Part shown: positions 1-47,268 of the stretch, in pieces
How the letters are laid out: every line of letters starts with the position of its first letter
Numbering within the stretch: position 1 is the stretch's first letter
From: Sipunculus nudus
Taxonomy: Eukaryota; Annelida; Sipuncula; Golfingiida; Sipunculidae
Reading direction: 5' to 3'
DNA: 64,000 nucleotides
Assembly: GCA_026874595.1 (NCBI GenBank)
Contig: CM049308.1
Coordinates: 48,925,327-48,989,326 of the forward strand
Made by a program: the position numbers and the translations under genes
The notes under the pieces: model-generated
Databases searched by the model: none
Told to the model about the DNA's origin: nothing
The model's input: only the letters and a program-made list of their open reading frames with translations

Positions 1-382
1 AACTGCCTTACTCACCTATGCCTTATCAGCCCAGTGCATTAAACTCTGGGGAAGTTTGATGTATTGGACTGATATTTTGACCTGTCTATGTTTCTTTGAT
101 AGTATTCTCATTTACAAGACAGGTGGTGCCACCTACATTGACTTTTGCAGTGTATGCGCCTGCTTATTTCTAAGGAGGAATTTGATACATCAGCCTAAAA
201 TTGGGCATGTTTATACATATCGGGTAGCTTTATAGTGTACAAGACTGGTGGCGCCACCTACAATAATTTTTTCACAGTGTATGTCCCTGCTTATTTCACA
301 GGAGGGGTTTGACATGACAGTCTGGGCATATGTATATATCTCTTAGTTGTATATAAGACTGGTGGTGCCAGCTACAATCATT
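1..382 (+). mobile_element. Outer repeat F, copy 1, left part
   Basis: Left part of a dispersed repeat whose second copy is at 45387-45805. It contains about three units of roughly 115-123 bp, each with a GGTGGYGCCA-type palindrome (about 124, 247 and 361). The window edge cuts its 5' end. It is interrupted at 383 by element A1 and resumes at 2956. Confidence 0.7.
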
Positions 383-2955
383 GTATCCGCCAAAACAGAG
401 TTTTGCAGATACAATGTTTTCAGTCGGACGCCGACGCTGCCGCCATCGCTGCATAGGTATCCAGAGAACTCCTCCATAACCGCTGGGCAGAATTTTTTGA
501 AATTCGGAATTATGATCGGTCACATGTGAACTGCTGCGCCCTCATTTTTGGTTGACCTCTGACCTTTCTTCTCTGCCCAGCGTCCATTTGTGCGTCTGTT
601 TCCACACATAAACCCACATATCTCGGGAACCGTTTGACTGATAAGGCTTAAGATTTTGCACAAGTGTAGCCCTTGGAAAGCTTTATAACCTACACTAAAA
701 ATGGTGGCGCCATCTGCAACTATTTTTTGCACAGCATCCATCTGTTCATCTGTCTTGGGATAAAAACACTCATATCTGTGCATTAGTTGGACTTATCCAC
801 CTGAAATTTTGCAAGTGTATACATCCTGGGCAGCTTTCTTGATTTTATGACAGGTGGCGCAACCTACATTCACGTTTAAGCTGCAGACATCCAAGCTCAT
901 ATCTCAGGAACCATTTGATCAGATGGGCCAAAATTTTGCATTTGTATAGATCTCCCATAGCTCTTCATACGCAAAATTGGTGGTGCCACCTGCAACCATT
1001 TTTGCACATCGTCCATCTGTTCATCTGCCTCAGGATAAAATCACTCATATCTAAGCAGTGGTTTGACTTATCCACCTGATATTTTGCACGTTTATACATC
1101 CTTGACAGCTTTCTTGATTTTATGACAGGTGGTGCCACCTACATTCAAATTTACGCAGCAGACATCCAAGCTCATATCTCAGGAACCATTTGACCGATTG
1201 GGCAAAAATTTTGCATGTTGATAGATCTCACATAGCTCTTTATCATACACAAAACTGGTGGCGTCACCTGCAACCATTTTTGCACAGCGTCTGTCTGTTT
1301 GTTTGCCGTGGGATAAAATCACTCATATCTCGGCAGTGGTTTGACATATCTGCCTAAAATTTTGTATGTTTATACATCTTGGATAGCTTTCTGGATTTTG
1401 TGGCAGGTGGCGCCACCTACATTTATGTATATGCTGCAGACCTTCAGGCTTATATCTCAAGACTGGTTTGACATATCCCCCTGAAATTTTGCATTTGTAT
1501 AGATCTCACATAGCTCTTAATCACACACATAATTGGTGGCGCCACCTGCAATCATTTTTGCACAGCATCTGTCTGTTTGTTTGCCGTGGGATAAAATCAC
1601 TCATATCTCAGCAGTGGTTTGATATATCTGCCTAAAATGTTGTATGTTTATACATCATGGATACCTTTCTGGATTTTGTGGCAGGTGGCACCACCTACAT
1701 TTATGTATACGCTGCAGACATTCAGGCTTATATCTCAGGACTGGTTTGACACATCCCCCTGAAATTTTGCATGTGTATAGATCTCGCATAGCTCTTAATC
1801 ATACGCAAAATTGGTGGTGCCACCTGCCACCATTTTTGCACAGCGTCAGTCTGTTTGTCTGCCGTGGGCTAAAATCACTTATATCTCACTAGTGGTTTGA
1901 CTTATCTGCCTAAAATTTTGCATGTTTATACATCTTGGGTAGCTTTCTGGATTTTGTGGCAGGTTGCGCCACCTACATTTATGTATATGCTGCAGACCTT
2001 CAGGCTTATATCTCAGGACTGGTTTGACATATCCCCCTGAAATTTTGCATTTGTATAGATCTCACATAGCTCTTAATCACACACAAAATTGGTGGCGCCA
2101 CCTGCCACCATTTTTGCACAGCGTCCGTCTGTTCATCTGCCTCAGGATAAAAACACTCATATCTCTGCATTGGTTGGACTTATCCACCTGACATTTTGCA
2201 TGTGTATACATCATGGACTTGCTTTCTTGATTTTATGACAGGTGGCGCCACCTACATTCATGTTTAAGCTGCAGACATCCAAGCTCATATCTCATGAACC
2301 ATTTGACCGATTGGGCAAAAATTTTGCATGTTTATAGATCTCACATAGCTCTTTATCATACGCAAAACTGGTGGCATCACCTGCAATCATTTTTGCACAG
2401 CATCTGTCTGTTTGTTTGCCCTGGGATAAAGTCACTCATATCTCGGCAGTGGTTTGACCTGCCTAAAATTTTGCATGTTTATACATCATGGATAACTTTT
2501 TGGAATTTTTGGCAGGTGGCACCACCTACAATTATGTATACGCTGCAGACATTCAGGCTTATATATGAGGACTGGTTTGACATATCCCCCTGAAATTTTG
2601 TATGTATATAGATCTCACATATCTCTTAATCATACACGAAATTGGTGGCGCCACCTGCCACCATTTTTGAACAGGGTCCATCTGTTTTTTCTGCCGTGGG
2701 CTAAAATCACTCATATTCTCAGTAGTGGTTTGACTTATATGCCTAAAATTTTGCATTTTTATACATCTTGGACAACTTTCTGGATTTTGTGGTAGTTGGT
2801 GCAACCTACATACACATTTCGGCTGCAGACATCCAGGCTATTATGCAACACACCTCACTCTATTCCCCTTGCCACTCAATCCATACCTCACTTCACCTTT
2901 CCTACTCTGATTTTGGAGGATACACGTAGTCGTTTGTTGACTACCCATATTCTAG
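383..2955 (+). mobile_element. Helentron-like non-autonomous element A1, 8 internal units
   Basis: The 5' end is an imperfect hairpin at 383-412 (arms GTATCCGCCAAAAC and GTTTTGCAGATAC). The 3' end has an inverted copy of the 5' terminus (ATTTTGGAGGATAC, 2910-2923), then a hairpin GTAGTC/GACTAC with a 7-base loop (2926-2944), then CTAG at 2952-2955. It lies in a T tract of outer repeat F (two T before, five T after) with no target-site duplication. This matches the Helitron/Helentron 3' signature (hairpin just upstream of CTRR). There is no Rep/helicase reading frame, so it is non-autonomous. Two shorter copies, A2 and A3, define the same ends. Confidence 0.75.
690..2830 (+). repeat. Internal tandem repeat of A1, ~277-bp dimeric unit x 8
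   Basis: The core repeats every 274-282 bp. Each unit has two half-units of about 139 bp that both carry the GGTGGCGCCACC palindrome: one followed by CTGCAA (about 703, 979, 1257, 1534, 1812, 2091, 2369, 2645) and one followed by CTACAT (about 849, 1126, 1406, 1683, 1960, 2239, 2515, 2788). Copies A2 and A3 have only three units each. Open frames on either strand here are translations of the repeat. Confidence 0.85.
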
Positions 2956-3148
2956 TTTTTGTGTTGTGTGCACCCATGCCAGTATTGCAGCAGTGATGTT
3001 TGTTTAATTGTTTCTTGTTCTAAGTGTTTAGTACTTGCATTGTTCATATACATGTTACACATGTTCTTGAAAAGTAATGGTCCAGCATTGAAGCATTATA
3101 CCTGGTGTAATCTCATTGCACAGGTTTGCATTAGGACTGTAGGCCTTG
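2956..3148 (+). mobile_element. Outer repeat F, copy 1, right part and 3' end
   Basis: Matches 47095-47268 closely. It ends in an imperfect version of the AGGCCTATAGGCCT palindrome seen in copy 2, running into CTTG at 3145-3148 and then TTTA. The end therefore has the same palindrome-plus-CTTG/T layout as the elements nested in F. Confidence 0.65.
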
Positions 3149-3149
3149 T

Positions 3150-3850
3150 TTAAAGTAATGTATGTTTTATCTTCAAAATTAGACACACTAGTTGTTTCTG
3201 CCATGTTCGCAGAGGAACTGGAAACTGGAGACCTTGACCTTTATCTTCTCATCCAAATATGTGGAAATTTAAAATATTGTGACCCCTACAACTTTTAAGT
3301 AGGGAAGATTTTAACCTCAATTTTGACACACAAGTTGTCTCAACAATGCTCTTTTTAAATGATTAAAAAATACTGATGACCTTGACCTTTATCCTCAAGG
3401 TATAATCCGAAGAATCTAGAATAATTGTGACCCCTATAACTTTTGAAGTACTGAACATTTCCCCCTCAACATGAACACTTACCAGTAAGCAGTATCAACA
3501 ATGCTCTTTGACAACGTCAGAAACTGGTGTTCTACAAGGTCAAATCAGCAAAAATGTCAAATTTTTTGGAACCTGATAAGTATTGCATATTTTGTCCTCA
3601 AATTTGATAGACAAAATGTTTCAACAAGTTCTCAGAGGACTTTATCTTAAAGGTGAAACAGCCAGATTTTATTTTGTCTTCAGCATTTTTGTGATGCATT
3701 AACTTTTTAAATTTTTGCCTATATGTCCCTCAAATTTGACACTCAGTTTGTTTCCACCAAGTTCTCGGTGGAATTTGAAAACTGGTGACCTTGACGTTGC
3801 CTTATTCTCCTCTTGTACAATCTGTATAGACCAGTCATGATTGCATTGAA
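3150..3850 (+). repeat. Degenerate tandem repeat, ~130-147 bp period, about 5 units
   Basis: Recurring blocks contain GACACACAAGTTGT-like sequence, a CAACAATGCTCT/AAGTTCTCAG-like stretch and often GACCTTGACCTTTATC, near 3182, 3326, 3473, 3607 and 3737. Units are strongly diverged. It starts directly after the F 3' end and may be the core of another old element; I could not fix its ends. Confidence 0.55.
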
Positions 3851-4568
3851 TCTTCATATGTGTTACCCATCACTAACTGAAGAAGTGGTATCAGAAGGTC
3901 AAAGGTCAAGATCACATTTGAAGTTAATCTCAATTTGATTTTCAGATGACAAAATATGCTGTTTTGAATGAGTGTCATGACACATGGCTCAGGCAGAAGG
4001 TCTATCTATGAATATCTAAGATAAACCTCCTGTATAAAATCTTTCACTCACATTTACACGAAATCAAGCTGTTGTGCATGGGAACTGTACATTACAATAA
4101 TTAAGACAGTGGAACAAATATAGAGCATGCATTGTCAACATTCATAACAAATTAATAACAGTTATAATAAATATTTTTGCCTTTTTTTATGCTTGAAATG
4201 TCTTAAAACTGGGGGAACTACATTTTGGCATGATATTGGTGATAGAGGTGTAAATGTATACAAACTAATACCTTGTGGCACCTGGTTTAAACACGTTTGG
4301 TACATGGGCGTTATTTTGGGGTGACGTCCGGGTCCCACTCCGAACACCTCATCTTATCTTTGAGTGGTCTCAGGAGAATACAAATTTGGCCGATTTTCCA
4401 AGTGGTCAAAATCCATGTGGTTCACCATAGTTGTATACAGTGGTTGCCTCAAGGCCACTGAAGTAGTGTGCTGGGTGAACAAGCAGTTGCAGGGGCCTAT
4501 CATCTGCCTCAATAGATCTTGACCCTGTGCATAGGTTGATGGCTGACATGTTGAATATTTTGTGTTTG
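3851..4568. other. No recognisable gene
   Basis: Mostly unique AT-rich DNA. A less AT-rich patch at about 4250-4550 has short minus-strand frames without splice context or recognisable motifs. I see no supportable feature. Confidence 0.5.
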
Positions 4569-4790
4569 TATTCATTAAAATTGTGTGTGATCCCTGTTAT
4601 TTCATTTAAATAAATGTGTGCCTTTTTGTCTCAGAATTCATTTCAAACAGTATGCCAGTTTTAAATTGTGCAGAGGTTTGTATTCATTAAAATTGTGTGT
4701 GATCCCTGTTAATTCAGTAAAATAAATTTGTGCCTTTTTGTCTCAGAATTCACTTCAAACAGTATGCCAGTTTTAAATTCTCATTATTGC
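4569..4790 (+). repeat. Tandem duplication, 112-bp period, 2 copies
   Basis: The block beginning TATTCATTAAAATTGTGTGT at 4569 is repeated at 4681 with few differences, ending near CAGTATGCCAGTTTTAAATT in both copies. No function is apparent. Confidence 0.85.
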
Positions 4791-5611
4791 ATGTTCAATT
4801 GTTATATATTCATATATGAAAATGTTCAAATAATGCAGTGTGTGCTTCATCAGACCACTTTGGTGTGTATAAATATGAAGGGGAGGGGTGGGGAGATAAT
4901 GTCTGTTTTGATTATGGTACCACCATACATCTCAGAAAGGTGTGATTTGATCAATTTAGTTTATGAAACCTTGTAAATTAACAAGATTTAAACAGATAGG
5001 ATTGGTTTAAGAGACCCTTAACCATAAGCTGGTGGTGACACCTGTTGAACAGGATAGGTATTAGACCATAGGCTTCTTGCATTTTAATGTCTATCTCATT
5101 TGCAGATAATATTGGCCCTGTGCCAACATTGCGTTTCTTGCAGTGAATTGGGTACCTGAAAGCCCAAGAAGTGTCATAAATGTTTAGAGGTATTTCAGAA
5201 CATTAAAAATACAATACTGAAATTTGAATTCGCCCAGTAATTTTTAGATATTTATCATGATTACGGTAATTAACCACACTCTTTCACACCTAAGCATTAG
5301 CATTTAGTTCATAACATTTTCTGTATGAGAATATTTCTGGCTCTGACCAAGCAGTAAATGCTTCAGTTCTCTTGTTCCAAAAGCCAGTCCTAATCAAAAG
5401 ACAACAATTACAAGGATACTCATCATCATACCCCAATAGCCCAGAGGGTGAGATTGTAATTGAATGGGTTTTACCTGTCTGTATGTCCATTGATCAGTCC
5501 AGCCACTGTTCTTGTCCAGAGGATTATTTCAATTTTGCTGGAGATTTTTAAATGAAACTGTGCAGACATGTTTGTCAGGACAAACATCACATATTATTAA
5601 TTGCCACATTA
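4791..5611. other. No recognisable gene
   Basis: Unique AT-rich sequence with short frames only. Nothing with splice sites or family motifs was found. Confidence 0.5.
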
Positions 5612-6705
5612 TTAGGGCCCCGCTTGACAAGCTGTGCCCTAAAGTGATCACCATGTCACTCTGTCCTTCTGTCCATCCGTTTTTCCGTCAGGGATGATTG
5701 GTACCTATGAGTGCTCCAGACCTATTGAATTACAGATCTGTCAGAATTCCAATATGGTTGCCACAGCCTGATCGCTGTTTTCCTTTCGCGTGCCATAACT
5801 CAACAACATCCTGCTGCAGCTTTCCAAAATTCACAGGAATGATTGGTACCTATGAGTGCTCCAGACCTATTGGATAACAGATCTGTTGGAATTCCAATAT
5901 GGCCTCCACAGCCTGATCGTTGATTTTCTTTCACATGCGATAACTCAACAACAACCTGCTGCAGCTTTCCCAAATTCAGAGGGATGATTGGTACCTATGA
6001 GGGCTCCAGACTTATTGAATTACAGACTTTTCTGAATTCCAGTATGGCTGCCACAGCCCGATTGTTGATTTTCTTTCTCGCGCGATAAATCAACAACAAC
6101 CTAATGCAGCTTTCCCAAATTCACAGGGATGGTTGGTACCTATGAGGGCTCCAGACTTATTGAATTACAGACCAGTCTGAATTCCAATATGGCCACCACA
6201 GCCTGATCGCTGATTTTCTTTTGCACGCAATAACTCAACATCAACCTATTGCAGCTTTCCCAAATTCACAGGGATGATTGGTACCTATGAGAGTTCAAAC
6301 CTATTGAATTACAGACCTGTCGGAATTCCAATATGGCCACCACAGCCCAAACCCTGATTTTTTTCACGCGCGATAACTCAATAACAACCTACTGCAGCTT
6401 TCCCAATTTCACAGGGTTCACTGGTGACTATGAGGGCTCCAGACCAATTGAATTACAGACTTGCTCAAAATCAAATATGGCCAGCAGACTACAATTGGTG
6501 ATTTTCTTTTGCACACATTATTTAAGACATATCTTCTTTAATATCATTTGATCCATTTGATTTTTTCCCTCATGCATATGGATAAAAACCTGTTTTTGTT
6601 TGTCATATTTTTCAAATTTAACTTAATTTTTCACCCACATGTAAATTAGTCCAGCACTATCAGAAATGCGGGGACCTCTGAGGACCATTGTCTGACCACA
6701 TCTAG
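5612..6705 (+). mobile_element. Helentron-like element C1 with six ~146-bp units
   Basis: The 5' hairpin has arms TTAGGGC and GCCCTAA (5612-5642). A GTCC/TCTGTCC-rich stretch follows, then six units of about 146 bp recognised by GATGATTGGTACCTATGAG-like sequence near 5692, 5838, 5983, 6129, 6275 and 6421. The 3' part has GCGGGGACCT, a diverged inverted copy of the 5' end, and the terminus ATCTAG then TT at about 6700-6707. C2 shares all these parts. There is no coding potential. Confidence 0.7.
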
Positions 6706-7585
6706 TTAAGTTTTATCGTCTAAAGCTAATAAGACACATTTATTTAACTCATTATTGATGCCAGCTATTTCAAAAAAAGCTTTTAGTACATACTCATTGG
6801 GGCTATTCACAATGTTTTCTTAACTTTTCATAATATCTTAAAATCAGTTACACTCTCCTAAATCAGGAAATGTGTCTTAGTAAAAGTAAACACATGAAAC
6901 CACTTAAGTTCTTAAATCATACAGTGTTTTAGACAGTAACACTAACTTTTCCATTCCTCAGTGTTCTGAGACTTATGAATTTGTTTTTAATGTTTGTTTT
7001 GTTTTTCAACAGTTTGATATAAAATTGTCATGTAAGTGTATTCAAGCCTTTTCTCTGGCACTTGATTCATTTTTTAATGTTAAAGAATATGTATCATCCC
7101 GTGAGAATATTCCTTTCATCAGGCGAATATTTAGCAAATTGGATGAACCAGTTCTTCAGGAAAAACATATATTTGGAACATCTTGGTGCATCATTTTACC
7201 CAATGTGTCCACCAAGGCATTGTTCTTAATCCAGTTTAGGTCATTTTGTTTGCTTTGTCATCGGGGTGTAAGCTTTAATTCAGTCCCTTTACTCTTGTGT
7301 TAATAGGGTCTAATCAAAATGTAATTTCTCAACTCTGTTAAGGACTCTGGACTTTTTCTGGAGTGTGTGCAAATATTTTTCTCACTGTTTATTAATGCAA
7401 AACCAATATGATAATTAACCACAATCACAAACTTGATTTACTTTCACTTATACAAACTTGCATTAAATAAAAACTGTTTATTTTCCATTTATTCTCTTTA
7501 GTTCGGGTATTTGAACTAAGCAAGCTCTTCAGACTATATTTATCTGGAAGCAAAATGTGAAAATGGAACATTTTCATGCATTTAA
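6706..7585. other. No recognisable gene
   Basis: Unique AT-rich spacer between the two family C copies. A CAACAG ... GTAAGT pair near 7010-7030 would frame only about 19 bases and is not convincing as an exon. Confidence 0.5.
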
Positions 7586-8786
7586 TTAGGGCCACACTGG
7601 AAAAGTGGTTGCCTACAGTGATCACTGTGTCAGTCCGTCCACCCGTCCTTCCATCTGTCCAGTGATGCTTTCTTTCGTTCACAATATCTTAATAGGATTA
7701 TGCTTCATCTTTCTCATACTCACAGGGTTGATTGGTACCTATGAGTACTCCATCTTCAAATTATGAAAGAACAGACATTTTGAATTTCAGTATGGCCTCC
7801 AGAGCACAATCAGTGATTTTCTTTCACGCGTGATATCTCAACAAGAACATGCTGAATCTTTCTCATATTCACAAATGATTGGTACCCATGACTGCTCCAC
7901 CAGCAAATATCAGACCTGTCAGAATTCCAATATGGCCACCAGATTGCAATCCGTGATTTTCTTTCACATATGATATCTCAACAAGAACCAGCTTGACCTT
8001 TCTCAGAATCACAGGGATCATTGATGCCTATGAGGGCTCTAGACCTGTAGAATTCCAGACCTGTCAGAATTCCAATATTGTCACCAAGGCCTGATCGGTG
8101 ATTATCTTTTGCTCAAGGTATCTCAACAAGATCATGCTTGAACCTTCTTATATTCACAGGGATGATTGGCACCTATGAGGACTCCATCTCTTTCGAATTA
8201 CAGACCTATTGGAATTTCAGTATGGCCGCCAGAGCACAGTCGGTGATTTTCTTTCATGTGTGATATCTCAACAAAAACATGCTTGATCTTTCCCAGATTC
8301 ATAGGGATGATTGGTGCCTATGAGGACCCCATCCCTATCGAATTACAGACCTGCTCAAAATCAAATATGGCCACAAGAGGCGATTGGAGATTTTCTGTCA
8401 TTAATTTTGACATAACAGACCAGAATCAGAAATTTTCTGTCGCACACATTTTCACAAACAGAATACTTTTGATCTTTGTCAGATTCACAAGAATGATTGG
8501 TGTGTATGAGGACTATTGCTGTCAAATTACAGACCCATCCAAAATCAAATATGGCAGCTAGAGTACAATGTGTGTTTTTCTCTATTGCACACATTATCTC
8601 AAACATATCCACTCTAATATGATTTGAACCAGTAGGATTTTTGTTCCCTCATGCACATTGCTAAAAACCTGTTTCTGTTTGTCATATTTTTAAACTATAA
8701 ACTTAACTTTTTTCCCATATGTAAACTAGTCCTGCACTAAAAGAAATGGGGGGGCCTTCTGAGGACCACTGTCTGACCACATCTTG
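7586..8786 (+). mobile_element. Helentron-like element C2 with about six ~146-bp units
   Basis: Same plan as C1: TTAGGGCCACAC at the 5' end, a GTCC-rich stretch at 7630-7660, units near 7735, 7868, 8015, 8163, 8306 and 8495, and a 3' end ATCTTG followed by TTTT. The terminus is CTTG here and CTAG in C1. Only about 880 bp separate the two copies, in the same orientation. Confidence 0.7.
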
Positions 8787-9387
8787 TTTTTCTAAGGTTC
8801 ACCAAAAATATTTGATCAGAAAACAAATGGCATGCACAACATGAGATGACACTACCGGTATATATACATGTATTTAAAATCATAGGCCATGGCACCATAT
8901 TGTTACAACACCTTATCTGACAAACTATTGAGTGTTCAGGGATGGATGAAGAGGGGTGTGTGCTTCCCTATTTCTCAACCTAAAATAAATCAGGGGAATG
9001 ATTAATTCATGTATCACCCAATTTTGCTTGTCATGTAGTTTGCTTCCATATACTTCTGCATACATGACGTAACATGAGTTATGTATTTAGTCTGCTAGTA
9101 TTCCTGAATCACTTGTTGCCTTGGGTCAAGGTGCTAGACCCCCTTTTCTACATTCCTGTCTGCCCCTGGAGTTGGTGACAAATTTATATAGGCTCCACCT
9201 GCTTCCTGGATGGGGGTTTCATGCCCTGAGTGAGGGGTGACATTTAGATGAAAACTGAATCAGAAAACACAGTTTATTTGCTTTGACTACTGACTATTGA
9301 AACATATTATTTACTCTTCTTTTCAATTCAGAAATGTCCTCTTAATACTGAATGAACAAGTGTGCAATATAAAAGTATACTTAGAAG
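8787..9387. other. No recognisable gene
   Basis: Unique sequence; nothing supportable on either strand. Confidence 0.5.
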
Positions 9388-9590
9388 CAGGGGTAGGACA
9401 TGGCCTGGTGGTTGGACTTCTGAGCCAAAGGTCCCTGGTTCGAACCCCGCTGGTACCTCAATTGCATAATGGTGAATCATTATCACATTGAACTTGAGAG
9501 ATTCACTCTGATGTCTTAATGAGAGGTTGACCTCTAGATTATTCCTAACCCCGTGTGTATTAAACCTGAAGTCCAGAAGGCTTAATAATA
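9388..9590 (+). mobile_element. tRNA-derived SINE
   Basis: The head resembles a tRNA gene: an A-box-like TGGCCTGGTGG at about 9401 and a B box GGTTCGAACCC at 9437-9447, 36 bases apart. The T-stem and acceptor stem do not pair properly, so it is not a functional tRNA. A non-tRNA body of about 120 bp follows, ending in an AATAATAAGATATT-like stretch. Internal pol III promoter boxes plus an unrelated body is the standard tRNA-SINE layout. Exact ends and target-site duplication are not certain. Confidence 0.65.
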
Positions 9591-12500: not shown

Positions 12501-13001
12501 TAAAGAGGTCATATTTTTTCTCTGTTTACTCACCAACTGTTATTATAAATGGCTCTTATTCCAGGTTTTGGGGGCAGCCATAACATTTTTTATCACTCTC
12601 AGTCTTAATGATGAGCAGAGCGTGTTCATAAGTCAAAACAGCTTCCACGCAACTTCAATCTGAGAAGATTAATACAGAGAGCACCAACACATTCCACAAG
12701 AAAGCATTAACACTGAATGATAGTCCTTCAGTGATTAAACAAGTGATTGCTGAATTGTTAATGCCTTTTTATTGTGAGTAATTTATTCTTTTACAAAACA
12801 GTATTTTTATATTATTTTTAAATAATTTCCCACCAAATGTAAAAGGAGACCTGTCATTTTTGAGTGATTGTGATGGATGTTCTTCTGGTATGGTTATCAT
12901 TAGTCTTGATATAATCATGCCATGCTTCCCCATTTTATTTTTTAAGATCCCCATCTTTTGTTGGTTATTTCTCTAATGCTGATTTTTTTTCTGTGTTTCA
13001 G
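9591..13001. other. Probable intron, mostly unique sequence
   Basis: AT-rich, without recognisable repeats of the families seen elsewhere. It ends at the acceptor site of the 13002 exon. A less AT-rich patch at about 12050-12250 has no open frame with splice support. Confidence 0.5.
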
Positions 13002-13088: not shown

Positions 13089-13179
13089 GTAAGCCATCCT
13101 TGCATCACATTGCTAAAAATCCAGATTTAATATTGGCATCAACACTTTATCATTCTTTTTGATTATCTTTTTAATTTTT

Positions 13180-14355
13180 GTATCCGCCAATACGAAGTTT
13201 TGTGCATACTGTGTTTTTGACCAGGTTCTGCCGCCGCCGCCGCATTCATTTCAGGAGAAATCCTCTGAGACTACTGGACGATTTTTCTGAAACTTACACC
13301 AGTTATCGGGTCACATGTGAACTAGTGCCCAACCAATAGGCATTGACCTCTTACTTTTCCTCTCTGCCCAGCGTTCATTTGTGCGTCTGTTTCCACACAT
13401 AAACCCACATATCTCAGGAACCGTTTGACCAACCAGGAAAAAAATTTTGTACAAATGTAGCCCTTGTATAGCTCTATAACATAACAAAAAATGGTGGTGC
13501 CACCTGCAACCATGTTTGCACAGTGTCCATCTGTTTGTCTGCCTTGGGTTAAAATCATTCATATCTCTGCAGTGGTTTGACTGATTCACCTGAAATTTGG
13601 CATGCGTTTACATCCTGGATAGCTTTCTTGATTTTATGACAGGTGGCACCACCTACATTCACGTTCATGCTGCAGACATCCAAGCTCATATCTCGGGAAC
13701 CTTTTGACTGATTGGGCCAGAATTTTGCATGTGTATAGATCTCGCATAGCTCTTTATCATATGCAAAACTTGTGGTGCCACCTGCAACCATTTTTGCACA
13801 GCATTCGTCTGTTTGTCTACCGTGGGATAAAATCACACATAACTCGGCAGTGGTTTGACATATCTGCCTAAAATGTTGCAGGTTTATACATCCTGGACAG
13901 CTTTCTTAATTTTATGACAGGTGGTGCCACCTACATTCTAGTTTACGCTGCAGACATCCAAGCTCATATCTCTGGAACCTTTTGACTGATTGGGCCAAAA
14001 TTTTTCATGTGTATAGATCTCACATAGCGCTTTATCATAAACTGGAAGGGCCACCTGCATCCATTTTTGCATAGCATCCATCTGTTTGTCTGCCGTGGGC
14101 TAAAATCACATATATCTCAGTAGTGGTTTGACTTATCTGCCTAAAATGTTGCGTGTTTATACATCTTGGTTAGCTTCCTCGATTTTTTTTGGCAGGTGGA
14201 GCCACCTACATATACATTTGGGCTGCAGACATCCATGCTAATATGCAACACACCTCACTATATTTCCGCTTTCCACTCAATCCATGCCTCACTTGACCTG
14301 TTCCACTCTGATTTTGGCAGATACACGTAGTCCCTTGTCGACTACCAGATTCTAG
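13180..14355 (+). mobile_element. Helentron-like element A2, 3 internal units
   Basis: Starts GTATCCGCCAATAC after five T. The imperfect hairpin runs 13180-13209. There are three ~277-bp dimeric units (GGTGG-type palindromes near 13494, 13640, 13772, 13919, 14048 and 14194). The inverted 5' copy ATTTTGGCAGATAC is at 14311-14324, the hairpin GTAGTC/GACTAC at 14327-14345, and CTAG at 14352-14355, followed by TTTT. Length 1176 bp. It begins about 90 bp downstream of the coding exon. Confidence 0.78.
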
Positions 14356-14371
14356 TTTTCAACACAAATTA

Positions 14372-19382: not shown

Positions 19383-19384
19383 TA

Positions 19385-26660: not shown

Positions 26661-26699
26661 TAGATTGTTACCTGCCTACGTTATAGTATAACAATAACC

Positions 26700-36055: not shown

Positions 36056-36902
36056 TGGCACTCCAAAGTACAGCTCAGAATAATGGAAAATTTGATACAA
36101 AAGCTAAAGTATCTGAACAACTAATGCAGAGATAACCATAATTGTTTGCATGGATATTGATCATGGAGTGTTTCATAAGTTTCTGCAGACTGGTGGCACC
36201 ACCTGTATTTGTTCGGTTTTTTTTTACGAAATTTTTCTGTATTTTTGAGACCTTTAAAGATATGAACATCTGTTAACAGGGCACAAATCATAAAAACTGG
36301 ACCAAGAATCTTCATTCTTGACACACAGGGAGACCCATGAAAAGTCTCCATGGAAACTTGAAATTAGGTCTCTGTTACCCATATTCTTTAAGCTGTATGG
36401 GTCCAAAATACCCCCCCCCCCCCCATGAATAATGGAAAATTTGATACAAAAACTGCAGTATTTCAATAACTACAACACTGATGGTCATGATTTTCGGCAT
36501 ACATATTGATCATGAGCTGTTCCATCAGTTTCTGCAGACTGGGTGTGCCACCTCTATTTTTTTTTCAAATTTTTACGAATTTTTTTCTTTTTTTTGAGAC
36601 CTTTAAAGATGTGGTTATCTGTCAACAGGATACAAATCGCAACAACTGGACCTAGAATCTTCATTCTTGTCATGCAAGGAGGCCCATGAAAGGTGCCTGT
36701 GGAAACTTGAAATTAGGTCTCTGTTACCCATATCCTTCAAGCTATAGGACTCCGAAGTATCCCTCAGAATAATGGACAATTTGATACAAAAACTGAAGTA
36801 TCTGAACAACTAATGCAGAGATCACCATGATTTTTTGCATGGATATTGACCATTAAGTGTTTTTATTAGTTTCTGCAGACTGGTGGAGCCACCTGTATTT
36901 TT

Positions 36903-38073
36903 GTATCCGCCAAAACGAAGTTTTGCGGATACTATGTTTTTGACCGAGTTCCTCCGCCGTGGCGGCGTTCGTTTCCAGAGAGCTCCTCAGAGACTAATGG
37001 ACCGATTTTTCCCAAACTTACACCTATTATCGGGTCACATGTGAACTGGTGCCTAACCAATTTGCATTGACCTCTGACCTTTCCTCTCTATCCAGTGTCC
37101 ATTTGTGGGTCTGTTTCCACTCATAAACCCTCATATCTTGGGAACCGTTTGACCGATCAGGAAATAAAATTGATACAAATGTAGCCCTTGGATTGCTTTA
37201 TAACATACACAAAAAATGGTGGCGCCACCTGTAACCATGTTTGCACAGTGTCCATCTGTTCATCTGCCTTGGGTTAAAATCACTCATATCTCTGCAGTGA
37301 ATTGACTAATTCACCTGAAATTCGTCATGTGTATACATCCAAGATAGCTTTCTTGATTTTATGACAGGTGGCGCCACCTATGTTCACGTTCATGCTGATG
37401 ACATCCAAGCTTATATCTCGGGAACCGTTTGACCGATCAGGAAATAAAATTTATACAAATGTAGCCCTTTGATAGCTCTGTAACATACACAAAAAATGGT
37501 GGCGCCACCTGTAACAATGTTTGCACAGCGTCTGTCTGTTAGTCTGCCGTGGCCTAAAATTACTCATTTCTCTGTAGTGGTTCGACATAACTGCCTAAAA
37601 TTTTGCAGGTTTATACATCGTGGACAGCTTTCTTGATTTTATGACAGGTGGCGCCACCTACATTCTAGTTAACGCTGGACACATCCAACCTCATATCTCA
37701 GGAACCATTTGACCAATTGGGCCAAAATTGTGCATGTGTTTAGATCTCACATAGGTCTTTATCATACACAAAACTGGAGGGGTTACCTGCAAAGATTTTT
37801 GCACGGTGTTTGTCTGTTTGTCTGCCATGGGCAAAAATCGCTCATATACATGTAGTGGTTTGACTTTTCTGCCTAAAATTTTGCAGGTGTATACAACTTG
37901 GACAGATTTCTGGATTTGTGGTAGGTGGCACAACCTACATACACATTTAGGCTGCAGACATCCATGCTAATATGCAACATACCTCACTCTATTTCCCCTT
38001 GCCACTCAATCCATGCCTCACTATCCGATTTTGGCAGATACATGTAGTCACTTGTCGGTTACCCGTATTCTAG
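36903..38073 (+). mobile_element. Helentron-like element A3 nested in B2
   Basis: The 5' hairpin arms are GTATCCGCCAAAAC and GTTTTGCGGATAC (36903-36932), the best preserved of the three A copies. Three dimeric units follow (palindromes near 37218, 37366, 37499, 37647, with degenerate ones near 37778 and 37924). The inverted terminus ATTTTGGCAGATAC is at 38028-38041, the hairpin GTAGTC/GGTTAC at 38044-38062, and CTAG at 38070-38073. Five T precede and four T follow; another B2 unit has a nine-T run at this position (about 36557). Confidence 0.8.
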
Positions 38074-38339
38074 TTTTAAAAGTTTACACAATTTTCTCTA
38101 TTTTTGAGATATATAAAAACAGACTAAATCTTGGCCTGTTGGTTAATCTGTTTGATGCTTCAGTTGAATGGGTATATACTACCATTCTGGTGATAAAATT
38201 TCCTTTTGTGAATCTCTTCCCAGTCAGCTGAGCGTCATGACCCATGGGTCACTTGTTGTGATTAAAAGCTCATTTCATACATTTGTGAAGATTGCATAAT
38301 TTTATATTCCAAGACCACCAGTTGATCACTGTGTGCTGG

Positions 38340-38750
38340 ACCTTCTGGTAAAAAATGGCATTCATCAGACAGTATATTCTGATGGTATGTAAAATGGCAT
38401 TCATCAGACAATATATTCTGATGGTATGTAAAATGACATTCATCAGGCAGTCAGACAGTATATTCTGATGTTATGTAAAATGAAATCCTCAGACAGTATA
38501 GTCTGATGTTATGTAAAATGACATTCATCATACAGTATATTCTGATGTTATGTAAAATGACATTCATCAGACAGTACATTCTGATGTTATGTAAAATGAC
38601 ATTCATGAGACAGTACATTCTGATGTTATGTAAAATGACATTCATCAGACAGAATATTCTGATGTTATGTAAAATGACATTCATCAGACAGTATGTTCTG
38701 ATGTTATGTAAAATGACATTCATCATACAGTATACTCAGATGTTATGTGA
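38340..38750 (+). repeat. 39-bp minisatellite, about 10 units
   Basis: Units combine GATGTTATGTAAAATGACAT and TCATCAGACAGTATATTCT, period 39. Because 39 is divisible by 3, both strands have long repeat-derived open frames of 13-residue repeats. No evidence that they are translated. Confidence 0.88.
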
Positions 38751-39369
38751 CAAAGGCAGCCAAACTAGTACATGCACAGATGTTCTTATGTCTTACATGT
38801 TTATGAGATATCTGATATAGGTAAAAATGAAGCAGAATATTTTGATTTATATGTAAAATAATGAGATTTGTAAATAAAACAACATGTATACAAAGGACTC
38901 AGATTTTTTTAACTGCATCCTATATTTGATTTCATTTTAGTTATATAGGCAGGAATTGAATAAGCAATGAACTGAATTTTGACATTAATTAAAGTAGGCC
39001 AAAGCAGTTGAATATACTAATATTAAGAATGAATGTGTATGAAGATTAAAAAGTCAAAAATAAGTTTAAGAATAATCAAGGAATAGCCAGTGCAAGTGAG
39101 GGTTTAGCAGTATATAAACATTTGGCCTTCTTCATTGTAATTTGTTCTATAATAACCAGGTCACACAAACTTAGGACCCTTCATACACTCTTTCTGTTAA
39201 CGTTGATAGTTTAACCCAGATAGGTGTTCATAGTTTGTTTCTAGTTAAATGACCACTTGAGATTTTTTTTCCACCTCTGATTTTGCAGAACTCACACATG
39301 TTCTTCCTGAATCAGAAATGCAACTGACAGATTGATAAAACACTATCAACTTGTAACTTCATTATTTTT
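38751..39369. other. No recognisable gene
   Basis: AT-rich unique sequence between the minisatellite and element E1. Confidence 0.5.
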
Positions 39370-41996
39370 AGCTCAGCTGACTATAAGTCATCTGAGCTAT
39401 AGTCGTGGTCCATTGTCCGTCGTCCGGCTGTCTGTCCGTCCGTCCGTAGATGTGGCACGTTTTGAAACCATAAGACCTAGGAACCTAAAATTTGGCATAA
39501 TGTTAGATGTCCCGAAGATCTCCTGCCAAGCCGAAAACTGGGTCTTTGCCACTTTGTTCCTTTGAGAAATTAAGGAAAAACCTCAATTTTTTATTAAAAA
39601 CCTATTTTCACACTTCAGGGCTGCCTAATATCAAAACCATTCATCTGTTGTTCCTCATATTTACCATAAATATTCCTCTATATAGTTCCTATGTACATGT
39701 CTGAAATTATGTCTGTATTATATAATTTGAGAAAGTTATGGGCCAGAACATAATGCATTTTGTAAAAAATCAGGAAAGATATTTGATCACTTAACACAAA
39801 ACTAGTTTAAGCTAAGGACTTTTTTTCAAGTAATATAACTTTAATTAATCAAAATTAAATTGTATACCCAAAATTAGATCAAAATCTTTTAAATTTTTTA
39901 AAAATATGAACAAAAATAAAAAATTGGTACCTTAAATTTTGCCTTACTTTGACCATGGCACGTTTTTTTCCTGTAAGTACTGTGGATTTAATTTATCAGC
40001 ATGTTTTTGTTAGCATTTTGTCTGTTAACAAAAATAATTTGAAACCAGTTGATCAAAAACTGTAGATTTTATTCAAGTTTTCAAGCACCATGTAACATAT
40101 TGTTTACATCAGGCTAGTGTTATGCAGTTTGCAAGAGCTCAGCTCCCCAGCTTAAGCTCTCAGTTCGTAAAATTTGGCATACAATTAGATGTCTCCAAAA
40201 TCCCCTATCATGCCAAGAATTTGGTCACTAGGACTTAATACCTTTATGATATTAATGAAAAACTTCATTTTTCAATTAAAAACCCATTGTTACACTTCAA
40301 TACTGCCTAATATCAAAACCACTGATCTGACTTTAATCATATATAATATACATGTTTTTCTATACATTCTCTGTGCACATGCCAGAAATTATGTCAGTAT
40401 TGTGTAATTGTTTTAAGTTATGGGCCCAAACATAATGCACTTTGTAAAAAAAATCAAGAAATATATTTACTCCCTTAACAAGGGGCTTGCTGAAGCTAGA
40501 GGTTTTTTGTCAGGAATGTAACATTATTTAATCAAGATTCAATTGAATACCCAAAATTAGTTCTGAATTTTTAAAATTTTATAAGTTATTAGTATAAATA
40601 TAAAATTAGTACCATAAATTTTGCCCAACTTTGACCATTTCACTTTTGTTTCATGTGAGCTCTGTTTTTATAATTTTCATATCATGCACACATAAGGATT
40701 TCAGCTTTTTAGTTTAGAAAGCTGAAAGAAATTGGCCAAAAAATGTAGCTTTTATTAATGTTTTTATGAGACCATGTCAGACCTTGGCTCTCTCCAGCCA
40801 CTCTTTAGTCACCTGTATGTTGAACTTGTTGAACTTTCAGCAAATTATGCACGCTTGAGGCGAGGCATATACCTGGGCAGCCAGGCAGCTTATGGCCAGC
40901 CACAGTTGATCCAGGTGTCCAACCCAACTCATCTAGTAGTTTTATACAACAACATAACAATAAACAATAAATTAATCAATTTTTATTGGTTTTTAATAAC
41001 AAATTAAAGAAAAATAGAAAAGGAATTTGTTAGTTTATAATAATAGGGAATTAACTTGCAGTTACTGATGATATAAGAATCTTGTATCGATGGATAGAAT
41101 TTCACATATTCCAAATAACACCATGCATTCACCTATGGCATTTTTCAGTTCAGTTTTAATAATAAAAAAGTAAATCATATTATTCATTACTAATCATAAG
41201 GGATCATATGAAGGAAATTAATGATAGACAAAGATGCAGTTGATAATATTAATCTAGATTCCTACTGTGTCTAGTGTGTACATTGATATGAAATTAGTCC
41301 AAAATGAATATATCACATTTATTTTTTTTTAATATAAATAAAAGCCATAAAACCAGGTACTTATGATCATTATTCAAATGTGTGAATTTTGTACATTCTG
41401 GATTCTCAACACCATTGTTTGGTGAAAACTGAATAAATACCAGACATGGTGGGAATACTTTGCAATTGGATTTAAATACGAATATGAATATGTACTCCAT
41501 TATAAAATTTCTTGCATAAAGAATGGGAATTCAGGTAAAAATGAAAGTATATGAATACCAGTGCAAATACTTTCCAAATGTATTCATGAATGCATTCATG
41601 AATATATTCTTTAATATTATTTTAATAATCATTTCAGTTATATTTCATTTTAAAAATCATACGATTCTCTTATTATTTTTAATAAAAATTATATCTGGGA
41701 CAATATTTGTAATTTTTTTTAATAAATAGTTAAACTCTTATATTATATGTTCTGCTTATAAGTTATATGGCCAAGTCAAAATCTGTGTGACAATAGCACT
41801 CCATTTGTTAATAAAATAAATGAAATCAATTCTCTTCTCTGTCTCCAAAGGTACTATCAAAATCATACATAAGCTAAACAACAACTCATAATACAGCTTA
41901 TACTTATTACCACACAAAACCAGCATGTGCCTCATTTCTAAATCATATTTTTTTATCATATATAACAGCTGAGCGCTGTGACCCATAGGTCCCTTG
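39370..41996 (+). mobile_element. Helentron-like element E1
   Basis: Family B-type ends on an unrelated core. The 5' hairpin AGCTCAGCTGACT / AGTCATCTGAGCT follows five T; then a GTCCGTC-rich stretch (39415-39450). Two diverged ~690-bp core units start near 39485 and 40170, followed by ~1.2 kb of single-copy sequence. The 3' end is CAGCTGAGCGCTGTGACCCA, TAGGTCC and CTTG (41993-41996), then TTTT. The copy E2 at 59881 confirms both ends. Confidence 0.75.
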
Positions 41997-42872
41997 TTTT
42001 ATACAGGTGGTTCTGTAAAGATCATAATAGTTTATGCTATTGTATTCATATCTGCCGATTCATTAACAGGTTTGGACAGAATAGAATATTATTTTGCCTT
42101 CATAAAGAGCTGGCTTCCATTTGATTTCAGTCCAGTGTGAAAATTATAAAGTGAACAGTTCAAAATTGACTTGTTTTGCTATAACACTTTGCCTGTTCCA
42201 TCTAATACTCTGTTACTGTCCACTTTGCAATCTTCTCTGACCTATCCAAGAAATGCTAAACATCAGAAGACCACCTGTAATCAACTTCATACATACCAGT
42301 ATAGCCTGGTTTCCATGACCCCTGAGTACCCAGTGGATTATGTGACAGGTCATGTGATTACAAAATGTGCATGTCAGCACCAAATATCTCCCCCCCCCCA
42401 AGGATTTTAATGATAATTAAGTGAAAGACTGTACATTTTGTATGTTCTACAGTAACAGACTCTTCTTTCTGCACCAGCATTTATTTACTCTTTCCCCAAA
42501 TTTATTCATTAGCTAATTTAATTTTAAATGTTTTTATTGAACATATATTGCAGACATTAATCTCAACTATTTGTCAGATTAAATCATCACTCTACAACAA
42601 AGATGTATAAATTAAAAAAGAGGGTGATACCAATCATATTTAGCTCTGTGCCTTTCTCATAACATTTTCAACATCTTGGTTAGTATCACGTTTTGTTTAT
42701 CAATGGTGAGCTTGTTGACACTTTCATTATCATGCATAGACAAACTCCATGGATAAACAAAAGTTCCATTTACATCATGGTTTAAATTTTCATAGATTGT
42801 AAGAAATATCTTCCTGGATTGACGGTCTGTTCATATTTTTTAACACCACTAATTTGAAATTTTACTATTTTT
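41997..42872. other. No recognisable gene
   Basis: Unique sequence with a short C run near 42391. Frames at 42171-42410 and 42213-42401 are opposite-strand shadows of each other with no support. Confidence 0.5.
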
Positions 42873-45000
42873 AGCGAACCTGTGAGCTTATGCGATGGTG
42901 TGGTGTCTTCTGTCGTCTGTACGTTAACCCATACTATCTTGAAAACGGGAAGAGTTTGCATCACAAAATTTTATGCAAAAAATTAATCATCTGAAAAACT
43001 CAGATGAAAAACTTATTTTTTGGCTAACTGCATTTTCTTAGATTTTATAGGGAAAAAGCTAAAAAAGCTTTAAAAATCTTCTTCTCCGAAACTGTTCAGC
43101 CAAATTGTTTAATGTTGCACAGAAATGATCCTAGGGTAGTGCTTTCTGAAATTTGTTCAAATGGTCTCAGTTCAGTGACTTTTGGCTGAGTTACGGGAAG
43201 CTGAATTTAGTCATATGCCATAACAGCCCATTTTAGCTCAGTGGCTACAAAGATCTTCTCAAAAACCACTGGGCCAAATTCTTAAATCTCACACATTAAT
43301 TATCCTTAGATGTTGATAATTCAGGTTTGTTCAAATGATTTTGGTTCAGTGATTTTTGGCTGAGTTATGGGAAGCTTAAGCCATTTCGCTTTATTTTCCC
43401 ATATGAGATATAAACCTGCAAAACGTTTTTTGACTGACGCCACTGAGGCCAATTTGTTTAATATTTTACAAAAATAATCCCCTAAATAATTCTTACAATA
43501 ATTGTCTTTTATGGTTCCAAAGAATGAATTTTGGCTGAATAATAAAGATTGAATTGAGTCATTTTACCATATATGTTAGCTGTGTGAAGCAGATACATTT
43601 AGCCTGGAACCAGTTTATCAGCATCCGTATCATCATGCCTCCAGACATTTAGATTTCAGGTTATCTATGGTTAATATTGACAAGAATGTTTTTTAAAAAC
43701 TTTTAAAAAATGTAGATTTATGATTTTAGATATTCCTCATGCCAGGCAATGTTTACAATCACAGGTATACATTAACCCATACTATTTTGAAAGCGACTGG
43801 AGCTAGCATCATGAAATTTAATGCAAAAAATTAGCCATCTGAAAAAATCTGCATTTTCTCATATTTTATAGAGAAAAAGCTAAAAAAAACTTTAAAAATC
43901 TTCTCCTCCGAAACGGTCAAGCCAATTTGTTCAATATTTCACAGAAATAATCTTTTATACCATCTCTCTCAAGATTGTTCAAATGGTTAAAGTTCGGTAA
44001 ATTTTGGCCAAATTACATGAATATGAACTTAGTCATCTGTCCAAAAAAGCATACTAAAATGACAATCTCAGAAACGGCCAGAGCTATCCTCACCAAATTT
44101 TATGCCAGTGTTGGTCACATGAGTCATATATGAAATTTTGGTGGCGCCACCTGCATTGACCTTTTTTTTGTACGGGGGTCATTGGTCATCTGTATATCAA
44201 CCTATAATTTCTCAGGAATAGCAGGAGCTACCATCCCGAGATTTGATCTGTCACATATCAAATGTTGTGGGATTCAGCTTATTTTTTGCTATCTGCTTTT
44301 ACTTAGAATTTATAGGGGAAAAGCTGAAAAATCTTTAAAAGTCTTCTTGTAAACGGTCCAGCCAAATTGTTCAATATTTTACAGAAATGATCCCAGAGGC
44401 TATGGTTTGCATTTGATGAATTTTAGTGGAGTTAAACAAATTTGAATAGTCATTTGGCCAAGTAAGCATACTGACATAGTTATCTCAGAAATGACAGAAG
44501 CTAGCATTACCAAGTATTGTGCAAATGTTGGTCACATGAATCATATTTGAAGTTGCAGATTTTGTGGTGCCACCTACATTGACCTATGGGCAAAAACCTC
44601 ATAATTTTAGCCTCTTTCAGCTTAAAATGTTTATGATGAAACTGTCAAGTTGAATCGTTCAATTTTTCATAAGAATTATCCTAGGACATGGTTCTTTCAA
44701 TCATATCAGAAAAGCTTAAGTTGGTCTTATGGCCATTATTATGTCTAACTCAAACTGAGGACTGCAAAACTGTTCTTCTACAAAATTATTGTTTCAATTA
44801 TAACTTCTGTAACATGGCACAAAAATTATTATTAGGTGGCCTTTTTTCAAGTTTACTTGAATGATTTTTGGCAGAATTGTTGGACCTTTAACAATGAAAG
44901 AACTGCATCTTTTATTATTCTAGATATTTTGATAAAAAGTTTATGAATATTTCAGCTTGAAAAAAAGCATTTTAGCCAAAGTCTTTCAGTATGTGTAAAC
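42873..45000 (+). repeat. Family H: decayed tandem-cored element
   Basis: Starts AGCGAACCTGTGAGC after five T, then a CTGTCGTCTGT stretch, matching the plan of the other families. Diverged units contain AGCCAAATTGTTCAATATTT and ACAGAAATGATCC near 43087, 43265, 43430, 43908, 44348 and 44643. GGTGGCGCCACCTGCATTGA near 44139 and a GGTGCCACCTACATTGACC variant near 44565 carry the shared palindrome. I could not find its 3' terminus, so the end is approximate. Confidence 0.5.
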
Positions 45001-45054
45001 AGATTTGCCAACAGGCCAAGATTGTGTCTGTATATTTAAATAGGTTAAAAAAAT

Positions 45055-45386
45055 GCCAACCGTTAAAGATTTGTCAATAGATCAGGAGTTCATTCAGTGC
45101 AGCTAGATATAGGTCAAGAGTTCAATCAGTGCAGCCAAGCACAAGGCATGTGATCACCTCATGGGTGACATGTGAACACCTCATGAGCACCATGTGATCA
45201 CCTCATGGGTGTCATGTCCCTCAGGGCTGCATGTGGAGCCAATCTATTTATAGCTTTGGCAGACTGCCGACTGTATCAGATTAGGCAACAGGTCAAAAGT
45301 TCACCCAGTCTAGCCAGGTGCAGGTCATGAGTTCACTCAGTGCAGTAGCCTGAGCCAGCAAATTTGTCACAGTTCACTCAGGGCAA
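45055..45386 (+). repeat. Short local repeats
   Basis: About three units of CATGTGATCACCTCATGGGT-like sequence, period 22-24, lie at about 45145-45215, and AGGTCAAGAGTTCA-like blocks recur near 45090, 45110, 45292 and 45327. This may be the 5' part of outer repeat F, whose first copy is cut by the window edge. Confidence 0.5.
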
Positions 45387-45805
45387 CTGCCTTTCTCACC
45401 TAAGCCTGGTCAGCCCCATGCATCAGATTCAAGGTAAGTTTGATGTATTGGCCTGGTATTTTGACCTGTCTATGTGTCTTTGATGGCTCTCTAGTTCACA
45501 AGACAGGTGTCACCACCTACAATGACATTTGCACAGTGTGTGACTTTTGTGCTTGCTTATTTCTATAGAGGAATTTGATATATCATCCTGAAATTTTTGC
45601 ATATTTATACCTATCATATTTTAATTATCGTATACTTGTCGTATACAAGACTGGTGATGCCACCTACAATAATTTTTTGCACAGTGTGTGTCCCTGCTCA
45701 TTTCTTAGGAGGGGTTTGATATATCAGTCTGAACTTGGGCATATGTATATATCTCTGATAGCTTTGTTGTTTACAAGACTGGTGGTGCCAGCTACAATCA
45801 TTTTT
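45387..45805 (+). mobile_element. Outer repeat F, copy 2, left part
   Basis: Aligns with 1-382, including the three GGTGG-type units and the final GCCAGCTACAATCA before the T tract. Interrupted by B3 after five T; resumes at 47095. Confidence 0.7.
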
Positions 45806-47094
45806 AGCTCAGCTGACTGTAAGTGAACTGAGGTATAGGAATGGCACTTTGTCCGTCGTCCGTCGGGACGTCTGGGCGTCCGGCTGTCCATTAGCAGAGC
45901 ACAAATCATAACGGCTGGTCCTAGAAACTTCTAAGTTAACATCCAGGGAGGTCAATAAAAAAATCTCCTTGGAAACCTGAAATTAGGTCACTGTGAACTA
46001 TATCCTTCGAGCTATGGGGCTTGAAAGTACCCCCCAGAATAGTAAAAAATTTGATACAAAACCTCCAATATCTTGATAATTAATGCCTGGTTTGTCATGA
46101 ATCTTGCCTTGAATATTGACCATGACTAGTTTTGTCAGTTCCTGAAACGTGGTGGTGCCATCTATATTTTTTCCTATTTTAACGAAAATTTTTCTATTTA
46201 TTTACTATAAAATGACAACAATCATGTCAGTTTCTCAGCTGTGATTACATCTTGTGTCCCCAAACCTGATGTGTTTATTGATCACAAGTGGATGCCCTAT
46301 ACTAATCACCCTGTCTGTCTGTCTGTTTGTATGTCTGTCTATCTGTCAATCCGCACAAATTTGTTTCCAGACGATAACTCCAGGTTGGATTAGCACATGG
46401 ATTTCAAACTTGACTTACACATGGCCCACCACTAAAGCAAGAACCTATATGATTTTGGGGTCATGAGGTCAATGGTCAAGGTCACAGGACCCATTTCTTT
46501 AAAAGGAATGTGTATGCATTTGATGCCAAACTTTTCATTGCAAACCTTCCATCTTCAAGAGATTGCTTACCTGCCACTAGTGGAAGATTCTGTTTGATTT
46601 TTGGGTCATAGGTCAAAGGTCAAGGTCACAGGGCCCATCCATTCACAAATTAGTTTATGGATGATAATTCTGCTTTGGATAGACAGACTGGCTTCAAACT
46701 TGATTTAATAATGACCAACCACATAAATAAGTTCATTTTGATTTTCAGGGTCCAGCGATCTAAGTTGAAGGTCACAGAAGCCACATCTTTAAAAAGATTG
46801 TGGATGCACTGTAAATCAAACTTTTCATCCTGAACTTTCCAACATTCACACATGGCTTACTTGCCCAAAGTGAGGAAACCTGTAGAATTTTAGGTTATCT
46901 GGTCAGTGGTCAAGGTCAACTTTTAAAAGATTGTTACAATAATCCTAATGCTGCAAGTTCAAGGATATTAAGTTCTAAGATTTTTTGGTCACAAGGTCAT
47001 TTGTTAAGGTCACAGGACTGTCATTCTGAAAAATTTCTTTAAAAAATATCCTTATAGACAAATTCAGCTGAGCTTCGAGACCCATGGTCCCTAG
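45806..47094 (+). mobile_element. Element B3, apparently chimeric with another core
   Basis: The first ~380 bp are family B (AGCTCAGCTGACT, GTCCGTCGTCCGTC, GGGAGGTCAATAAAA, a GGTGGTGCCATCT variant near 46151). From about 46220 the sequence changes to an unrelated core with a CTGT-rich microsatellite (46311-46346) and repeats of GGTCAAGGTCACAGG near 46474, 46620 and 46990. The 3' end is CAGCTGAGCTTCGAGACCCA, TGGTCC and CTAG (47091-47094), where other B-type ends have CTTG. Confidence 0.6.
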
Positions 47095-47268
47095 TTGTGT
47101 TGTGTGCACCCATGCCAGAATTTCAGCAGTGATGTTTGTGTAATTTTCTTATTCAAAATGTTTAGTACCTGCATTGTTCATATACATGAGAAGTAATGGT
47201 CCAGCATTGAAGCATTATACCTGGTGTATTTCCCAATGCACAGGTTCGCATTAGGCCTATAGGCCTTG
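47095..47268 (+). mobile_element. Outer repeat F, copy 2, right part and 3' end
   Basis: Aligns with 2961-3148. Ends in the perfect palindrome AGGCCTATAGGCCT (47253-47266) overlapping CTTG at 47265-47268, then TT. Confidence 0.65.

Follow-up and report, generated by a model that had tools for sequence, protein, structure and literature searches.

In a 64,000-nt stretch of the Sipunculus nudus genome (GCA_026874595.1, CM049308.1:48,925,327-48,989,326, forward strand; hereafter the window), two copies of a repeat called F are interrupted in the same short run of T residues, one by an element termed A1 and the other by an element termed B3. How did two different elements come to lie in the same tract? 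The preliminary description of this DNA offered two answers, either two independent insertions at a hot spot or the replacement of one element by another. The reading we favor, with a probability of roughly 0.8, is that F, A1, and the B family to which B3 belongs are three families of HINEs (non-autonomous Helentrons), that an integrase docks such elements in a tract of five T residues (T5) within F, that each kind of composite goes back to about one insertion, and that composites spread by copying that continued past the 3' end of the inner element.

Both interruptions can be described to the base, and all features given here lie on the + strand. In F copy 1, which starts upstream of the window, the left part (1-382) ends in ATCA (377-380) and TT (381-382). 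A1 follows at 383-2955, running from GTATCCGCC to CATATTCTAG, and is succeeded by TTTTT (2956-2960) and by GTGTTGTG (2961-2968), with which the right part of the copy (2961-3148) begins. F copy 2 spans 42873-47268 including its passenger. Its left part (42873-45805) ends in ATCA (45797-45800) and TTTTT (45801-45805), B3 occupies 45806-47094 from AGCTCAGCTGA to GTCCCTAG, and TT (47095-47096) leads into the right part (47097-47268), again opening with GTGTTGTG (47097-47104). The flanks of the two copies are homologous (77% over 418 bp on the left, where copy 1 matches 45385-45802, and 83% over 193 bp on the right), and A1 and B3 show no mutual match at an E value of 1e-8. The junction layout originally reported for both copies is thereby confirmed base by base.

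The state of the site before insertion can be read from other copies of F. The genome searched comprises 1.43 Gb in 153 contigs; the search for all F copies was done in part, and the genome-wide junction and flank counts given below are lower bounds. The 22-base right flank of F, GTGTTGTGTGCACCCATGCCAG, has 6,294 matches at up to two mismatches (none for the reversed control), and 97 copies (L001-L040, L061-L117) were fetched among 100 listed matches to it. Their occupancy was assigned by script, with 15 rows assigned by eye and the T counts recounted. The tabulation of the T tract proposed in the preliminary description was thus run on part of the F family and yielded 58 empty copies, 27 with an A1-type end, nine with B3, two with another B element, and one with the end of an F element. 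A majority of empty copies had been named beforehand as evidence against insertion. That majority is real in number, yet insertion is not refuted, because the empty copies represent the pre-insertion state.

It had also been proposed that the empty site would read ATCA-T7. This form is rejected: the tract is exactly T5 in 43 of the 58 empty copies, T6 in one, and T7 in none, and the remaining 14 have a shorter run or a changed letter. Genome-wide, ATCA-T5-GTG has 3,748 matches at up to two mismatches, and the exact T7 form occurs only three times. An origin of these three copies (L118-L120) as footprints of A1 excision is not favored, as their flanks lack the letters of the A1 lineage.

Occupied copies carry seven T residues in total. 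The run to the right of the element is T5 in 25 of 27 A1 copies and T2 in eight of nine B3 copies. Where longer stretches were read, the left junction is ATCATT|A1 in nine of 10 cases (it was not found in L046, the first A1 base is changed in L047, and L044 is rearranged) and ATCATTTTT|B3 in seven of seven. Comparison of an empty T5 with a filled 2+5 or 5+2 establishes that each insertion adds two T residues, A1 entering after the first TT and B3 after the whole tract. The gained pair can be a TT duplication or can have been carried by the element, and the T counts fit either origin. A second place within F shows a similar change: L044 has CTTATT[A1]TTTC in place of the CTTATTTCTC of other F copies, that is, three T residues when empty versus five when filled.

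These counts also bear on the idea that F natively contains A1 and B3 and that other copies lost them by deletion. Occupied copies are numerous and the A1 repeat unit is distantly similar to F monomers, but most empty copies bear a scarless T5 and span more F lineages than the occupied ones do. Moreover, A1 and B3 sit at different bases, and both A1 and B have ends of their own and solo copies in unrelated flanks elsewhere. We regard a native origin as scarcely credible.

What kind of elements are these? To judge from their structure, each of F, A1, and B is a family of HINEs and hence of rolling-circle, copy-out transposons. F, A1, and B3 share subterminal inverted repeats (subTIRs) of 11-13 bp, a 3' palindrome, a CTAG or CTTG end, and T-tract targets. 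The window A1 contains 7.7 copies of a 278-bp unit between its 5' subTIR GTATCCGCCAAAA and its 3' subTIR TTTTGGCGGATAC, the reverse complement, which lies about 32 bases before the end and is followed by the hairpin GTAGTC...GACTAC and CTAG. Of the 27 A1 ends sampled, 14 have a perfect 3' subTIR; the window copy has one mismatch in it. B3 starts with its subTIR AGCTCAGCTGA; its 3' subTIR TCAGCTGAGCT lies 20 bases from the end and is followed by a palindrome (GACCCATGGGTC in B relatives) and CTAG. The 5' end region of B holds a GTCY-type microsatellite.

F itself has the subTIRs GCGAACCTGTG and CACAGGTTCGC and the palindrome AGGCCTGTAGGCCT. In copy 2 it starts with AGCGAACCTGTG after T5 at 42873, bears GGTGGTGCCACC-type monomers near the right end of its left part, and finishes with CACAGGTTCGC-ATT-AGGCCTATAGGCCT-TG, then TT. 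Copy 1 likewise ends in the palindrome AGGACTGTAGGCCT, TG (giving CTTG), and TT, and its right flank is of the A1 lineage described below. When F copies from different places are aligned, similarity is lost directly after CTTG-TT. The 278-bp A1 unit and the monomers of F match at about 70%, so the two elements have some similarity to each other. No open reading frame (ORF) longer than 99 amino acids overlaps the two window copies (the longest is 99 amino acids in 1-3148 and 83 in 42873-47268; protein families were not compared).

Termini outside the docking site are also bordered by T residues. True starts of F and B there are preceded by at least two, and at least two follow the F end in 80 of 91 rows and one in 11, with reverse-strand matches of 3' ends set aside by eye. 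Once false matches were removed by eye, the run to the left of F starts among fetched loci and the window was T5-T7 in 11 of 13 cases and exactly T2 in two of 13. For B starts it was T5-T7 in seven of 11, exactly T2 in three of 11, and T3 in one. The 5' TC of canonical Helitrons is absent (the 5' ends are GTATCC, AGCTCA, and AGCGAA), and the sole feature in keeping with that class is the 3' CTAG of A1 and B3. Canonical insertion between A and T could account for a site with two T residues on the left and five on the right, written (2,5), if the element carried two T residues, but not for (5,2).

Are the two window copies the insertion events themselves, as had been hinted? The data do not support this. 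Both are members of multiplied composites: at least 1,192 A1-type junctions and at least 509 B3-type junctions in F occur genome-wide at up to two mismatches. A tree was built from 116 right flanks of F, and the number of label changes required on it was compared with that for 500 shuffles of the labels. The 27 A1 rows need four changes (shuffled mean 24.5) and the 12 B3 rows need two (shuffled mean 11.6), and in both cases none of the 500 shuffles gave a value as low. Median flank distances are 0.040 within the A1 group and 0.035 within the B3 group versus 0.087 among empty copies. Most A1 rows have distinctive letters in common, along with a 15-base stretch missing from B3 rows, although some empty copies carry the stretch too. 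Because the A1- and B3-occupied flanks form compact lineages, there was probably a single insertion of each element into an ancestral F copy, after which the composite multiplied with the two ends of F. No replacement of one by the other need be invoked, since, L010 apart, the F lineages that hold A1 are not those that hold B3.

The unit that moved appears to be F with its passenger inside. Within the stretches read, the F 5' start follows unrelated flanks in seven of 10 A1 composites (L041-L043, L045-L047, L050), and the 3' host flanks of F copies are likewise unrelated. Among B3 composites, only the window copy showed the F 5' end, the upstream stretches of the others being shorter. Two right junctions of B3-bearing F copies in the same orientation lie 2,023 bp apart (L055-L056) and may be tandem composites.

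An alternative is that A1 entered F anew each time, in about 1,200 independent insertions and with no spreading founder. A1 does share its base (2,5) with CTTG-ended B elements, so the site is re-usable, and one place (L160) was found where an A1 left junction has three to five T residues, in this case T5. The single compact lineage of A1-occupied flanks, with four label changes where 24.5 would be expected by shuffling, makes this account highly improbable.

Because the F sample was selected through the right part of F, it does not reveal how often copying stops at the end of A1 itself. Among 18 further A1 ends from outside that sample (L173-L190), L175 is once more an A1-bearing F copy, the right part of F being worn, and L184, L188, and L190 are solo A1 elements with both ends. 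Thirteen of the 18 continue at their 3' ends into one shared module (TTTTAAAATGTCC...), which in L138 leads into the 3' palindrome found in F. The module seems to mark a sister family of F in which A1 is likewise present, often lacking its own 5' end.

B elements that end in CTTG rather than CTAG show a different history at the same tract. A search for right junctions of the form CTTG-TT(N0-4)-GTGTTGTG gave 131 matches. In the 100 of these that were listed, the right run is T5 in 66, T2 in 30, T3 in three, T6 in one, and T4 in none, with another base following the run in two rows. Some listed junctions belong to A1 or B3 copies in which a letter has changed (e.g., L019, L134-L136), and seven T2 or T3 rows that were read include two F ends (L138, L139). 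On the left side, a B start after CAATCATT plus zero to two positions gave 101 matches. Among the 100 listed, the start follows exactly TT after CAATCA in 83 and four T residues in 12, and among the three four-T rows that were read, two belong to the B3 type (L157, L158). Sixteen TT-left junctions were fetched, of which 13 lie at the docking site on both sides, two fit on the left, and one is elsewhere in F.

Left junctions of B on contigs C1-C9, from the docking search and from a second search at AATAATT, were paired with listed right junctions within 12 kb. This produced 26 pairs and left 57 left junctions unpaired. The pairs are (2,5) in 24 cases, (2,2) in one, and (2,3) in one; the 13 that were fetched and read are all (2,5), though they were picked from rows listed as such. 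Clustering of 17 B copies by their last 90 bases (single linkage, difference below 15%) separates six subtypes, and in five of these T5 stands to the right. On the flank tree the 16 rows with CTTG-ended B need 15 label changes versus a shuffled mean of 15.2, that is, they are scattered, and the flank of one B-occupied copy (L071) is identical to that of an empty copy (L063). Given the six subtypes, the scattered flanks, and the (2,5) precision, these data are best read as recurrent entry of CTTG-ended B elements at one base of T5 in unrelated F lineages. The hot spot with independent insertions is thus supported by the distribution of junctions and flanks, including two insertion points three bases apart, but the events number more than the two first envisaged.

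Gene conversion between F copies could have spread a few B insertions and made recurrent events seem more numerous than they were. Both flanks are homologous among copies, and L010 resembles the product of an exchange. Against this, the six B subtypes, five with T5 on the right, would still require several entries, and flanks of F copies occupied by other B elements are at least as diverse as empty ones (median distance 0.114 versus 0.087, with one long row, L121, included). We consider conversion on this scale somewhat unlikely.

Does the site consist of more than a run of T residues? If HINEs enter any TT and F is simply abundant, the tract need not be special. The published target preference is indeed T-rich or TT (PMC4067079, PMC7492417), and other HINE insertions within F are known: B at TTCTTGTT (L034), A1 at CTTATT (L044; empty T3, filled 2+3), and F at AATTGTT (L124). 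The docking tract, however, holds about 78 B junctions (estimated from the 83 of 100 listed left junctions with two T residues after CAATCA, given that 15 of the 16 read lie there), and its exact string occurs in 20 of 97 sampled copies. A control site in the right part of F, GTAATTGTT, has just seven exact B junctions genome-wide despite being the commoner string (47 of 97 copies). The excess per exact site is about 25-fold, a figure confounded by the shorter T-run of the control.

A better matched control is AATAATT, a paralogous tract in the monomers whose exact internal string was counted 20 times in the 97 sampled copies. It takes 29 B junctions, 10 of them TT-left and 16 T5-left, and at least five of the 10 TT-left junctions are the docking site itself, in F copies that have AATAA in the final monomer. 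Relative to this matched run, the docking site shows an excess of about 15-fold for TT-left junctions but of only about threefold for the left classes taken together. Were the base within T5 chosen uniformly, 3+4 and 4+3 arrangements would be expected as well. On balance, a plain T-tract preference seems unlikely to us. A stem that would expose T5 as single-stranded DNA was tried as an explanation and found no support (folding z-scores of -0.46 at the site and 0.74 at the monomer control). The stronger proposition, that F is a true docking platform where several families enter a context-specific T5 at a fixed base, composites are assembled, and replication passes the inner terminator, we put forward tentatively, as possible but more doubtful than probable.

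What could carry out these steps? The genome has 143 matches to PF14214, a Helitron Rep-type domain, several of them in long open frames. Two scanned frames combine Helitron_like_N, a PIF1 helicase, and a C-terminal Exo_endo_phos domain, which is the Helentron arrangement. A Rep-helicase-endonuclease of such a Helentron, acting in trans, would copy out F, A1, and B by rolling circle. An integrase would recognize the internal A-TTTTT-G tract of F together with its surroundings and join the element at an edge of the tract, after the first TT for A1 and CTTG-ended B or after the last T for B3, with a gain of two T residues. Each composite would go back to about one such insertion and would then be copied from the F 5' end to the F 3' palindrome, across the 3' end of the inner element (the inner CTAG).

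Several observations weigh against this reading of docking, single founding events, and passage. The 97 F copies are exact 22-mer matches, all of them located on a single contig within its first 28.5 Mb, and the genome counts are lower bounds. The flank tree is weakly resolved, with 89 of 110 inner branches open and none starred. In L010 (also listed as L010 / L059) an A1-type end stands beside a flank of a lineage that is otherwise empty or B3-bearing, and this mismatch means that exchange between F copies occurs. No clear product stopping at A1's own 3' end was found among the 18 A1 ends outside the F sample, L178 being ambiguous. Two of the 26 B pairs are not (2,5), although the (2,3) pair is false, its left end lying elsewhere in F (L156). 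The threefold excess over the matched T-run belongs here as well. Finally, no convincing A1, B, or F ends were found in three 14.7-kb stretches around the Helentron genes, from which full elements may extend further. As a separate matter, L009 adjoins L010 at 1,310 bp in the same orientation.

The kind of element is known. HINEs and DINE-1-like non-autonomous Helentrons have the same subTIRs, 3' palindrome, T-rich or TT targets with usually at least two T residues per side, central tandem repeats, and lack of a long ORF, with Rep-helicase-endonuclease proteins encoded in the genome (PMC4067079). Thomas et al. describe the target site as unmodified and the T number as variable (PMC4067079), whereas here paralogous empty copies reveal a gain of two T residues and an internal site is re-used at one base. 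The Cg_HINE and Pearl elements of bivalves similarly have satellite-like central arrays between short conserved flanks, a GTCY-type microsatellite near the 5' end (here in B), and insertion into T-rich sequence and other repeats (PMC7492417). That source describes flank-plus-array combinations and exceptionally two arrays in a row, but the excerpted sections describe no HINE-inside-HINE composites like those found here.

A rolling-circle element within another, mobilized as a composite, has its closest parallel in the composite FoHelis formed by self-insertion (PMC5148889). In the model for nested Helitrons given in that paper, copying stops at the first 3' end and two 5' ends are kept, whereas the composites sampled here retain the outer 3' end beyond the inner one. 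No re-used Helentron insertion site is described in the mostly open-access literature searched, in the parts at hand (including PMC4067079, PMC7492417, PMC5148889, and PMC12628747). What is new is the base-precise, re-used site in one HINE family, together with the two families of composites that arose from it. Paralogous copies of the site, empty and filled, number in the thousands and constitute a natural experiment on the effect of Helentrons on their target, here the gain of two T residues, and on the exactness of target choice. The composites also represent a concrete route by which HINEs could gain new satellite-like cores, and they offer a test of whether an internal 3' palindrome halts rolling-circle copying.

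The window holds further members of these families outside F. Additional A1 copies lie at about 13180-14355 and 36903-38073, and a solo B-family HINE at 39370-41996 has T5 before AGCTCAGCTGA and CTTG-TTTT at its end, if the start and end are assumed to belong to one element. Two other tandem repeats are also present: a 78-bp repeat at 49696-50559 with 11 copies and a 237-bp higher-order period, and a 45-bp repeat at 58014-59122 with 24.6 copies and 93% matches, whose unit length is a multiple of three.

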